Assembly: GCF_000756385.1 (NCBI RefSeq)
Contig: NZ_JNFC01000012.1
Span: 1-64,000 of the forward strand
Source of the DNA: Sphingopyxis sp. LC363
Lineage (GTDB): Bacteria; Pseudomonadota; Alphaproteobacteria; Sphingomonadales; Sphingomonadaceae
DNA length: 64,000 bases
Reading direction: 5' to 3'
Shown here: positions 4,863 to 10,324 of the stretch, one piece after another
Layout: each line of letters begins with the position of its first letter
Numbering within the stretch: the stretch's first letter is position 1
Program-made: the position numbers and the translations under genes
Notes under the pieces: generated by a model
What the model was told of the DNA's origin: nothing
Seen by the model: the letters and a program-made list of their open reading frames with translations, nothing else
Databases searched by the model: none

Positions 4863-4884
4863 GAGCTGGAGAGAATTGGGATTC

Positions 4885-5084
4885 GCGCAGAGGACGCAGA
4901 GATCGCGGAGGGGAAGATATCGGATTCACGCGGAGGCGCGGAGAGAAAGTGTTTGCCGCGAAGCGGTCTTTCCCTTCGGCCTCGCCTCGCAAATTGACGG
5001 TGCAATAAGAAGGGGCCTTTCGGCCCGATCATCTCCGCGCCTCCGCGTCTCCGCGTGAACAAAAAATCTCTGCGTCCTCTGCGC
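4885..5084. repeat. nested inverted-repeat element without a gene (GxxExxY-cassette type)
   Basis: The outer arms are a perfect 18-bp inverted repeat, GCGCAGAGGACGCAGAGA (4885-4902) and its complement (5067-5084). The inner arms TTCACGCGGAGGCGCGGAGA (4925-4944) match 5032-5059, which has one extra CTCCGCGT unit. The inner arms share their sequence with the terminal repeats of the GxxExxY cassette at 8545-8986. The interior of about 87 bp is non-coding. Probably a deletion relic or a gene-less sister of that cassette. Confidence 0.75.
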
Positions 5085-5101
5085 CTCTGCGCGCAATAGT
5101 C

Positions 5102-7567: not shown

Positions 7568-8506
7568 ATGCGCGCATTCATCTTTCCGGGTCAGGGCAGC
7601 CAGTCGGTCGGCATGGGCAAGGCGCTCGCCGAAGCATCGAGCCACGCGCGCGAGGTGTTTCAGGAAGTCGACGACGCGCTCGGCCAGAAACTGTTCCAGC
7701 TGATGAGCGAAGGCCCCGAGGATCAGCTCACCCTCACCGAAAACGCCCAGCCCGCGATCATGGCGAACGCGATCGCGACGCTGCGCGTGCTCGAAAAGGA
7801 AGGCGGCGTGACGCTCGCCGCCAAGGCCGATTATGTCGCGGGCCACAGCCTCGGCGAATATAGCGCGCTCTGCGCTGCGGGCGCCTTCGACCTCGCGACC
7901 ACCGCGCGGCTTTTGAAGACGCGCGGGCAGGCGATGCAGGCGGCCGTGCCCGTCGGCGTCGGCGCGATGGCCGCGCTGCTCGGCGCCGATATCGACACAG
8001 CGCAAAAGCTCGCCGACGCCGCTGCCGAGGGCGAGGTTTGCACCGTCGCCAACGACAACGACCCCTCGCAGGTCGTGATCTCGGGCCACAAGGGCGCGGT
8101 CGAGCGCGCCGTCGCGTTGGTCAAGGATTATGGCATCAAGCGCGGCGTGCTGCTCCCGGTGTCGGCGCCCTTCCACTGCCCGCTGATGCAGGGAGCCGCC
8201 GACGCGATGGCCGAAGCGCTCGGCGCGAACCCGCCCGCTGCGCCGCTGGTACCCGTCGTCGCCAACGTCACCGCCAGTCCGGTGAGCGACGCCGACAGTA
8301 TTCGCGACCTCCTTGTCCAGCAGGTGACCGGCCGCGTCCGCTGGCGCGAAAGCGTCGCGTCGATGGAGGATATCGGCGTTGCCCAGTTCGTCGAATTCGG
8401 CGGCAAGGTCCTCTCGCCGATGGTCAAGCGCAGCGCATCGGGCGAGGTCGAGACGGTGAGCGTCATCTCGATGGACGACATCGAAGCGCTGCTGAAAACC
8501 CTCTAA
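7568..8506 (+). CDS. fabD: malonyl-CoA:ACP transacylase
   Basis: Transfers malonyl from CoA to acyl-carrier protein for fatty-acid synthesis. 312 aa, the usual length. FPGQGSQSVGMG at the start; the GHSLGEYSAL motif holds nucleophile Ser94; the distal catalytic His lies in VSAPFHCPLMQ. fabG follows 500 bp downstream. The two are often adjacent, but here a GxxExxY cassette separates them. Confidence 0.97.
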   Translation: MRAFIFPGQGSQSVGMGKALAEASSHAREVFQEVDDALGQKLFQLMSEGPEDQLTLTENAQPAIMANAIATLRVLEKEGGVTLAAKADYVAGHSLGEYSALCAAGAFDLATTARLLKTRGQAMQAAVPVGVGAMAALLGADIDTAQKLADAAAEGEVCTVANDNDPSQVVISGHKGAVERAVALVKDYGIKRGVLLPVSAPFHCPLMQGAADAMAEALGANPPAAPLVPVVANVTASPVSDADSIRDLLVQQVTGRVRWRESVASMEDIGVAQFVEFGGKVLSPMVKRSASGEVETVSVISMDDIEALLKTL

Positions 8507-8544
8507 AGAATACACGCAGGGGCGCAGGGGCAGCGACGAAGAAG

Positions 8545-8986
8545 TTCACGCGGAGACGCGGAGACGCGGAGGGATTGTGCGGGACATAGATGTCGTAAGC
8601 GGCGATGTGCTTGATTTGTCCCTCCGCTTGCACCGCGATTTGGGACCGGGCTTACTGGAAAGCGTATACGAGACCGTGCTTGCCGGAAAACTGGTTGCGC
8701 TCGGATATCGGGTCGATCGGCAAATGCCGATCGATATATATTTCGAAGGGTCTCGCTTCGACGCGGCCTTTCGTATCGATTTGCTCGTCGATAACCGTCT
8801 GCTGGTGGAGATCAAATCGGTCGAACGGCTGAACCCGGCACATGGCAAACAGCTGTTGACCTATCTTCGCCTGACCGGCCAATCCGTCGGACTGCTTATC
8901 AATTTCGGTGGCGCGACGCTCAAGGAAGGCGTCCGCCGCATCGTCAACGATCATAAACCCTCCGCGTCTCCGCGTCTCCGCGTGAA
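8545..8986. mobile_element. GxxExxY cassette bounded by perfect 29-bp inverted repeats
   Basis: 8545-8573 and 8958-8986 are exact reverse complements, built from TTCACGCGGAGACGCGG units ending GGAGGG. They enclose the GxxExxY gene, whose GTG lies 3 nt inside the left repeat and whose last codons are read through the right one. The unit is inserted between fabD and fabG. Upstream, 8513-8530 carries a related ACGCAGGGGCGCAGGGG stretch. No target-site duplication could be identified. Mobility is inferred from the structure and from the related element at 4885-5084. Confidence 0.65.
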
Positions 8987-8993
8987 CCGGTAA
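8577..8993 (+). CDS. GxxExxY protein, PD-(D/E)XK nuclease-like
   Basis: 138-aa protein with the defining motif in GPGLLESVYE (GLLESVY). A core RIDLLVDN-RLLVEIKSVE resembles the D...ExK active site of PD-(D/E)XK nucleases (Pfam PDDEXK_3). It starts at GTG right after the left 29-bp inverted repeat. The C-terminal residues SASPRLRVNR are encoded by the right repeat and may be a read-through tail. The biological role of the family is not known; nuclease activity is inferred from the fold. Fatty-acid genes on both sides suggest insertion rather than function in that pathway. Confidence 0.85.
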   Translation: MRDIDVVSGDVLDLSLRLHRDLGPGLLESVYETVLAGKLVALGYRVDRQMPIDIYFEGSRFDAAFRIDLLVDNRLLVEIKSVERLNPAHGKQLLTYLRLTGQSVGLLINFGGATLKEGVRRIVNDHKPSASPRLRVNR

Positions 8994-9011
8994 TCATCAG
9001 GAGAATAAGCT

Positions 9012-9752
9012 ATGTTCGATCTCACCGGCATGACCGCCCTCGTCACCGGCGCCTCGGGCGGTATCGGTTCGGCTATCGCGCAGGCGCTCGCGGCGCGGGG
9101 CGCGCGTCTCGCGGTGTCGGGCTCCAACGCCGACAAGCTCGCCGCCTTCCGCGACACGCTCGGCGGCGACCATGTCGCGTTGCCGTGCAATCTCGGCGAT
9201 GCCGCCGCCGTCGATGCGCTGGTGCCGTCGACGGTTGAGGCGCTCGGCCAGCTCGACATCCTCGTCAACAACGCCGGCGTCACGCGCGACAACCTCATCC
9301 TGCGGATGAAGGACGACGAATGGTCCGACGTCATCCGCATCAACCTCGAGGCCAATTTCCGCCTCGCGCGCGCGGCTGCGAAGCCGATGATGAAGGCGCG
9401 CTTCGGGCGTATCATCTCGATCACCAGTGTCGTCGGTGCGACGGGCAACCCGGGGCAGGCTAATTATGCCGCGTCGAAGGCGGGTGTCACCGGCATGAGC
9501 AAGGCGCTGGCGCAGGAACTCGCGAGCCGCGGCATCACGGTCAACTGCGTCGCGCCGGGCTTCATCGCGACCGCGATGACCGATGACCTGCCCGACGCAC
9601 AGAAGGAGGCGCTCAACCAGCGCATTCCCGCAGGCCGGATGGGCGAGGGCAGCGACATCGCCGCTGCGGTCGTTTATCTCGCGTCGAAGGAAGCGGGCTA
9701 TGTCACCGGCCAGACGTTGCATGTGAACGGCGGCATGGCCATGCTGTCCTGA
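9012..9752 (+). CDS. fabG: 3-oxoacyl-ACP reductase
   Basis: NADPH-dependent reduction of 3-ketoacyl-ACP, second step of the elongation cycle. 246 aa, classical SDR: TGASGGIG cofactor loop (12-19), NNAGVTRDN, and catalytic Ser139, Tyr152 and Lys156 (NYAASKAG). A strong AGGAGAA site precedes the ATG. It follows the GxxExxY cassette by 18 bp, so transcription from fabD must cross the cassette unless fabG has its own promoter. Confidence 0.96.
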   Translation: MFDLTGMTALVTGASGGIGSAIAQALAARGARLAVSGSNADKLAAFRDTLGGDHVALPCNLGDAAAVDALVPSTVEALGQLDILVNNAGVTRDNLILRMKDDEWSDVIRINLEANFRLARAAAKPMMKARFGRIISITSVVGATGNPGQANYAASKAGVTGMSKALAQELASRGITVNCVAPGFIATAMTDDLPDAQKEALNQRIPAGRMGEGSDIAAAVVYLASKEAGYVTGQTLHVNGGMAMLS

Positions 9753-9784
9753 AGAACGGACCCTCCGGATCGAAAGACGAGTCG

Positions 9785-10324
9785 ATGATGAAGGTTTTGA
9801 TGGCGGGCACGGCGTTGATGCTCGCGGTGCTGCCGGACGTTGCCGCGGCGCAGGATGGCGAGAAGCTCGATTGCGTCGTTACTTCGGTGCCCGGCGACAC
9901 AAAGATCTCGATCGGCGATGCGATGGCCGGCGGCGGTGACGACGCGTCGCGCGAAGCCCTGTTCAAGCAGTTGGCGAGCGTTACCGACGCTTGCGTCACG
10001 CGGCACGGCATCGCGGCGGAGCAAAAGGGTCCTTATTTCGATTATAGCCTCGCGCGCATTTCGCGAGAATGGCTGGCGAACGACATCGCCAAACTCGATC
10101 TGTCGCCGGCGATCGTCGACAAGGCGCTCGATTTCGGACCCGCCGGCGCAAACCCCGACCTTTCGACCGACATGACCGAAGAGCAGATCATGAAGATCGT
10201 TCAGGCCTATGTCGAAGCCGGGGTCGATATCGACAAGGTCGACGGCGCGGTCTGGGAAAAGGTCGGCGCCTATGCCGCGGCGACCTCGATCTACTGGAAC
10301 AAGCGCAAGCTGCTCGTGCCCTGA
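9785..10324 (+). CDS. secreted hypothetical protein
   Basis: 179 aa with a clear signal peptide (MMKVLMAGTALMLAVLPDVAAAQ, likely cut after AAA). The mature part is mostly helical and has two Cys that could pair (DCVVT and DACVT). No catalytic motif recognised. Starts 32 nt after fabG, so possibly co-transcribed. A second ATG one codon in is equally possible. Function unknown. Confidence 0.7.
   Translation: MMKVLMAGTALMLAVLPDVAAAQDGEKLDCVVTSVPGDTKISIGDAMAGGGDDASREALFKQLASVTDACVTRHGIAAEQKGPYFDYSLARISREWLANDIAKLDLSPAIVDKALDFGPAGANPDLSTDMTEEQIMKIVQAYVEAGVDIDKVDGAVWEKVGAYAAATSIYWNKRKLLVP

Follow-up and report, generated by a model that had tools for sequence, protein, structure and literature searches.

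A predicted GxxExxY nuclease gene between fabD and fabG in Sphingopyxis and the gene-less palindromes that carry the same arms

The GxxExxY gene and its arms

We analysed a window of 64,000 nucleotides from Sphingopyxis sp. LC363 (positions 1 to 64,000 of contig NZ_JNFC01000012.1, here C12, from a genome of 4.21 Mb in 73 contigs, here G000). In this window, a gene of the GxxExxY family lies between fabD and fabG and is enclosed by a pair of inverted repeats, which we call arms. The gene (8577-8993, + strand) starts with GTG, ends with a stop codon at 8991-8993, and encodes 138 amino acids. The left arm (8544-8573, + strand) contains three inward-pointing CGCGGAG heptamers with a period of 8 nt and is separated from the start codon by 3 nt. 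The right arm (8958-8987, - strand) is its exact reverse complement and encodes the last codons of the gene. A first-pass annotation, made from the sequence alone, had described a GxxExxY gene at this site within exact inverted ends of 29 bp; the ends are indeed exact, and they are 30 bp long, one more than claimed. With an inverted-repeat search, the pair reaches 36 nt (94%). The arms align with a score of 30, as compared to a maximum of 14 among shuffles of related loci (20 shuffles for each of 109 loci), so their pairing is not due to chance.

The window protein is a clear member of TIGR04256 (119.7 bits; curated cut-off 35 bits) and of PF13366, or PDDEXK_3 (118.9 bits; cut-off 22 bits), families whose names carry no function. 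It is encoded by the only TIGR04256 gene in the genome. The PD-(D/E)XK residues (D...ExK) are complete, the alpha-beta core is present as well, and purifying selection was shown alongside conserved active-site residues. We predict that the protein is a small nuclease of the RecB/Cas4-like PD-(D/E)XK type. It is much smaller than Cas4 and RecB-type exonucleases (SSO0001) or the archaeal Hjc resolvases. Cas4 has the four cysteines of an iron-sulphur cluster, whereas the 138-residue product has zero cysteines, and its gene is not beside CRISPR or recombination genes. A structure search by sequence gave just two matches, both at chance level (one of them a Cas4), and Foldseek gave zero matches at E of 0.001 or better. 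Because nuclease-type families are the only ones in Pfam that the enclosed protein matches above their cut-offs, no transposase was seen inside the arms, in agreement with the first-pass annotation.

We considered and rejected three other settings for the gene. Matches to known defence systems were weak only (the protein has a weak PADLOC match to RT-associated PDDEXK, 5e-4). A phage origin was rejected because there was no match among 50,697 phage records. Spread by plasmids was rejected because just 8 of 72,556 plasmid records match. One of these, NZ_CP155749.1 (an 880-kb "plasmid" of Sphingomonas parapaucimobilis; locus L326), looks chromosomal because it carries rpsF, fabD, fabG, and fabF.

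The arms also overlap with features of the gene. The right arm supplies the last ten codons (SASPRLRVNR), as the first-pass annotation had pointed out for the window. As a meaningful feature this did not hold up: the stop codon reaches or passes the beginning of the right arm in only 104 of 159 loci (from a 189-locus set that contains some genes twice, via two routes), so a C-terminus written by the repeat is incidental, and we rejected a conserved use of the repeat for this purpose. On the other side, GGAGG within the left arm could be the ribosome-binding site of the gene.

Gene-less palindromes and the distribution of arms

The arms of the gene also occur without it. (We denote genomes by G numbers, contigs by C numbers, and loci by L numbers.) A gene-less palindrome at 4925-5060 of the window (pattern pair C12:4929-5055) has the same arms as the gene-bearing element: a left inner arm of CGCGGAG type (4925-4943, + strand) and its partner (5033-5060, - strand). 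Further gene-less pairs of this type in the window genome are at C12:228896-229036, C38:15895-16033, and C47:7599-7766, and pairs of CGCAGAG type are at C34:93717-93778 and C15:19619-19743. The inverted pairs found by pattern in this genome span 62-176 nt, except for the gene-bearing pair at 434 nt (a pattern-matching inverted pair on C56 was left out of our reading). Thus, copies with and without the gene both exist, in the window genome and in its relatives; the first-pass annotation had suggested counting both. Loose scans are uninformative by themselves: allowing up to 3 mismatches to the 16-mer ACGCGGAGACGCGGAG, the window has 9 matches, a number that 3 of 100 shuffles attain, versus 4.5 expected, and the whole genome has 131 matches, which is fewer than the 202 for the reversed control. 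Instead, it is inverted pairs of copies with no or one mismatch that stand out.

The gene-less elements have conserved ends and diverged middles. We fetched 17 CGCGGAG palindromes from G050 and compared 16 of them (all except L317): identity is 97.4% over the outer 18 nt and 56% in the loops, versus 44.7% if shuffled. This is the REPIN pattern. A GCCGC-GCGG hairpin is kept in the loops of 15 of these 16 elements, and the loops of three gene-less elements from G054 differ from those of G050. The loop of the window element (4955-5026) has terminator-like hairpins on both strands (GCCGCGAAGCGGT at 4955-4967, + strand, and another at 5013-5026, - strand; both are consensus matches only, and the region has 5 such sites versus 3.5 in shuffles). 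Insertion of such an element could therefore place a two-way terminator between genes.

Arms around the gene are widespread. Among 60 Sphingopyxis genomes, 30 of which have a TIGR04256 match, arms are present at 49 of 51 matches, and the two exceptions are short fragments. Arms are also present at 103 of 109 related loci (29 of which come from the genus sample) and at 25 of the best 30 loci from a sample of 397 Pseudomonadota genomes (44 of these genomes bear the gene, including G066, which is below the family cut-off). Six genomes from other groups contain 31 matches; setting aside 9 fragments or weak rows, we found arms at 15 of the 22 loci tested, including a perfect 31-nt arm, CTGAACCACGGAGACACGGAGGCACGGAGAA, at L191. 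Of the 8 matching plasmid records, 6 were fetched (all except H6 and H7); arms were tested in 5 and found in 3: Bacteroides, Gemmatirosa, and Bernardetia have them, and Fusobacteria and Treponema do not. Across these loci the unit can be written more generally as CRCNRAG (in some cases CRCNGAT), with a spacing of 8-10 nt, typically three per arm and pointing inward; this heptamer-arm design recurs at some loci of other phyla.

The number of dispersed repeats is associated with the presence of the gene. Counting the gene's own arms and ignoring kinship between genomes, the median number of CGCRRAGNCGCRRAG copies is 44.5 (range 7-226) in the 30 Sphingopyxis genomes with the gene and 5.5 (range 1-45) in the 30 genomes without it (p = 8.5e-10). 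Counts for the reversed pattern are likewise higher with the gene (median 9.5 versus 5.5, p = 0.0025, 60 genomes), but this control is impure because a repeat with an 8-nt period partly matches its own reverse, so we consider the gene-less genomes to be the better control. A stricter pattern was found in 23 of 44 Pseudomonadota genomes with the gene and in 18 of 353 without it (p = 1.2e-14, again counting the gene's own arms and ignoring kinship; one of the 18, G446, has a tandem array).

Furthermore, the type of arm follows the lineage of the protein and not the genome. On a tree of 47 of the 51 genus proteins (two fragments and both genes of L265 were left out), arm type changes 6 times, versus a mean of 26.7 (minimum 20) when shuffled, while genome of origin changes 43 times, versus 40.3 when shuffled. 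Of the 11 genomes with several genes on the tree, 9 have more than one coarse arm type. The dispersed repeats track the type of the gene in part: the ten genomes with a CGCGGAG-armed gene have 17-69 CGCGGAG repeats, versus 0-54 in 20 genomes whose genes have other arms (p = 1.5e-4), and the cross-control was null (p = 0.40). The two arms of a locus also resemble each other more than they resemble the arms of other loci: in 80 named loci, comparing a left side with its own right side gives a score of 22.8, versus 16.2 with the right sides of others, although the own side equals or surpasses all other loci in just 15 of the 80 cases, as many loci have one arm type in common. Arm agreement was 95.0%, with 52 of 69 best partners, for loci that were picked for high arm scores, so these values lean upward.

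Palindromes of different types can be nested. In the window, the gene-less CGCGGAG element is enclosed by a second palindrome of CGCAGAG type (left outer arm 4881-4910, + strand; right outer arm 5068-5093, - strand), and it is the only one of five in G000 that is flanked on both sides. Of the 17 CGCGGAG palindromes in G050, 12 lie between two CGCAGAG-type arms, three have such an arm on one side, and two have none; in G054, none of the three is flanked on both sides. Nesting could arise by insertion into existing palindromes or by composite copying; both are possible. A probable decayed CGCAGAG-type arm (8511-8543, + strand) also lies just outside the left arm of the gene-bearing element in the window. 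This decayed arm was recognised by eye and is not counted by the arm scan; it is clearer in G005, G054, and G002, and by eye we saw no right-hand partner for it.

Several observations on neighbouring repeats stand on their own. A second nesting pair consists of CACRAAG within CGCRAAG palindromes (G022 C51, C105, and C130; G050 C16:83869-84079). Another dispersed repeat, GTGCTGAGCTTGTCGAAGCAC ... CCTTCGACAAGCTCAGGGCGAAC, occurs within or beside CGCGGAG repeats (G000 C47:7598-7767, L035; C1:95154, L036; and L312). AAG-armed genes from different Sphingopyxis genomes (L045, L048-L053, L056) adjoin the same few sequences, such as GGTGCTGGTGCCGT, in either orientation; judged by eye, these are a second recurrent site.

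Descent, exchange and empty sites

The first-pass annotation had proposed comparing the spacing between fabD (7568-8506, + strand) and fabG (9012-9752, + strand) across relatives. We could read this junction in 53 of the 60 genomes, and the gene is there in 13. The 40 junctions without it comprise 34 with a spacer of 22-29 nt, four with another insert, one with a spacer of 3 nt, and one for which fabD was not found. None of the 34 empty spacers contains a CRCNRAG unit. By coordinates and arm types, the arms of the gene at this site are CGCGGAG in ten genomes and CGCAGAG in seven. The other insert, of 636-728 nt (L161, L166, L162, and L169, in G036, G007, G014, and G027), begins with coding sequence that resembles, by eye, the small window gene at 9785-10324.

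Where the gene occupies this site, it seems to have been there for a long time. Both fabD and fabG are within 200 bp in 64 of 80 named relatives, and fabG is within 200 bp downstream in 81 of the 109 related loci, on the same strand as the gene in all 81. Because the neighbours and the strand are kept, we conclude that this copy is long-resident and has been transmitted mainly by descent and allelic exchange, with no recent jump of its own. The window itself records a recent exchange of segments between species, with the element included: relative to L071 (a contig of G040), 8201-9000 is identical at 797 of 800 positions, 8001-8200 is 90% identical, 7601-8000 is 97-99% identical, and the sequence right of 9000 is 77-93% identical, while 9001-9800 is 96-99% identical to G024, which lacks the element. 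A record titled Arthrobacter (QDFQ01000005.1, L081) also has the order fabD-GxxExxY-fabG, with a gene that is 82% identical to the window's and like those in Sphingomonas records; it is probably mislabelled.

We also aligned occupied and empty sites for two gene-less elements of the window genome, those at infA and ahcY (its cspA-side element was left out). Upstream of infA, among 12 genomes, the element has CGCGGAG arms in G000, G054, G002, and G051, CGCGAAG arms in G009, and mixed arms in G052; the site is empty in G023, G037, G005, G024, G016, and G039. The loop in G009 is, by eye, like that of G054, whose arms are CGCGGAG, so at this site both arms seem to have switched type together. The element beside ahcY is in G000 only, among seven genomes aligned.

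Vertical inheritance of a long-resident gene whose inverted repeat arose by chance or is maintained locally, unconnected with the dispersed repeats, would account for the position between fabD and fabG in 64 of 80 named relatives. We consider it scarcely tenable, as it is contradicted by the repeats elsewhere, the other genomic sites, the lineage-specific arms, and the association of gene and repeats. The first-pass annotation had noted that the same locus everywhere, with no copies elsewhere, would speak for fixed vertical inheritance; we found empty sites and copies elsewhere. Of its proposal of a self-contained mobile or repeat-propagated unit, what stands is that the element has its own ends, that gene-less copies exist, that repeats track the gene (and in part its type), and that arms track the lineage; the fabD-fabG copy itself does not stem from a recent jump.

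A candidate nuclease-palindrome system

We propose that GxxExxY genes and palindromic CRCNRAG repeats are probably the two parts of a single genetic system that operates as RAYT/REPIN does, and we infer the binding, cleavage, and mobilisation, as well as the form of the substrate DNA. The PD-(D/E)XK protein would recognise the arms, either as double-stranded sites or in the form of a hairpin (extruded or single-stranded), and would cut at or near them. Repair or re-integration of the cut palindrome could then spread or homogenise the gene-less copies, while the gene would remain at roughly one copy for each lineage and genome and move mainly via descent and allelic exchange. The simplest and most likely reading is that of a nuclease that would read its own arms.

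REPINs and RAYTs (PMC3116915) resemble this system in several ways: inverted repeat doublets around variable loops are dispersed in the genome (the few palindrome sites that we read closely are intergenic), the gene is flanked by its own repeat type, and repeats accompany the presence of the gene (with G052, G049, and a weak match for the AAG type as exceptions here). The same source describes several RAYT genes in one genome as each being distinctive, as is so here in most of the 11 multi-gene genomes, and it reports excision products for REPIN/RAYT. On the other hand, the enzyme here is a PD-(D/E)XK nuclease and RAYT is a Y1 HUH tyrosine transposase, and the arms here are three iterated heptamers. 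Because an HUH transposase is absent and only PDDEXK_3 is above the Pfam cut-off, this is not a member of REPIN/RAYT. In the accessible portions of the literature on GxxExxY and PF13366, we found neither flanking arms nor gene-less partners, and GxxExxY is named in passing only; the accessible results of a search with the arm sequences were unrelated. The scatter of gene-less repeats through genomes that have the gene suggests an undescribed family of palindromes served by its own nuclease.

Several results weigh against the proposed system. Arms are below threshold at 6 of 109, 7 of 22, 5 of 30, and 2 of 5 loci in the samples described above; the 7 of 22 include all three loci tested in the planctomycete G064. 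Some genomes are rich in repeats with no detected gene (45 in G052, 24 in G049, which is 81% complete, 17 in G034, and 16 in G010). The association of repeats with the gene is not significant within family f41 (14 of 22 versus 8 of 17, p = 0.24), and the counts are uncorrected for kinship. The match between AAG-type repeats and gene type is weak (p = 0.025): G002, G026, G041, and G045 hold 51-92 AAG-type repeats with no AAG-armed gene, and G009 holds 165 with a gene fragment only. Similarly, G032, G045, and G056 have 54, 28, and 27 CGCGGAG repeats with no CGCGGAG-armed gene. At the infA and fabD-fabG sites, whose flanks have diverged, we saw no target-site duplication. Finally, a protein that required the arms just for its own regulation could produce the same association between repeats and gene.

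This last idea leads to an alternative that we consider unlikely but worth weighing: that the arms are regulatory (an operator or an RNA stem), that the gene-less copies arise by general recombination or serve as host terminators, and that the protein has another role, for instance in defence or repair. The GGAGG in a left arm that stops 3 nt short of the start codon, the terminator-like hairpins on both strands of the window loop, the hairpin kept in 15 of 16 G050 elements, and the weak PADLOC match would all fit. However, if pairing were kept for an RNA stem in the sense transcript, then G-U mismatches should be in excess, and we found 88 G-U versus 90 A-C mismatches (p = 0.94; related loci were not thinned). 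A stem in sense RNA is therefore unlikely to be what maintains the pairing, and we rejected it; duplex sites, a cruciform, or a hairpin of single-stranded DNA remain as the form that is kept. Also, regulation leaves unexplained why dozens of gene-less copies are tied to the presence of the gene and, for CGCGGAG, to its type.

Terminal inverted repeats and gene-less copies are also features of miniature inverted-repeat transposable elements (MITEs) and insertion sequences, which raises the question of whether an unrelated transposase elsewhere moves these elements, with GxxExxY as cargo. That no transposase was seen inside is compatible with this, yet we give it only a slim chance. The enzyme here is of another superfamily, there is no target-site duplication to be seen, and none of the pattern-found pairs in G000 is long enough for a transposase (the genomes were not searched for a transposase with these ends). 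Moreover, arm type tracks GxxExxY lineage and the design recurs with the gene in several phyla, and a foreign transposase predicts neither. Homing-like spread, in which the gene-less allele would be cut by the nuclease and then receive a copy of the element along with flanking DNA, is very unlikely too. Co-conversion could produce the near-identity to L071 over 8201-9000 beside the identity to G024 over 9001-9800, and the site is occupied in only some, scattered members of the genus; but the mosaic on the left side (8001-8200 versus 7601-8000) is also a product of ordinary recombination, the empty spacers have no CRCNRAG unit, and gene-less copies at unlinked sites would be unexplained.

Returning to the two-part system of nuclease and palindromes, a broader claim is more tentative, and we hold it at somewhat less than an even chance: there may be a class of mobile palindromes across several phyla in which a dedicated PD-(D/E)XK nuclease replaces the transposase, and whose lineages each read their own heptamer code, propagate gene-less elements that bear it, and nest in one another's palindromes.

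GxxExxY genes occur in many bacteria (44 of the 397 sampled Pseudomonadota genomes) and their name is silent as to function. Their link to palindromes of one design supplies a substrate that can be tested. The lineage-specific code of the arms makes the specificity of the protein directly testable as well. The tie between GxxExxY and palindromes may explain one class of short dispersed repeats, and if the mobility is true, then the REPIN/RAYT way of life would have arisen again with an unrelated enzyme.
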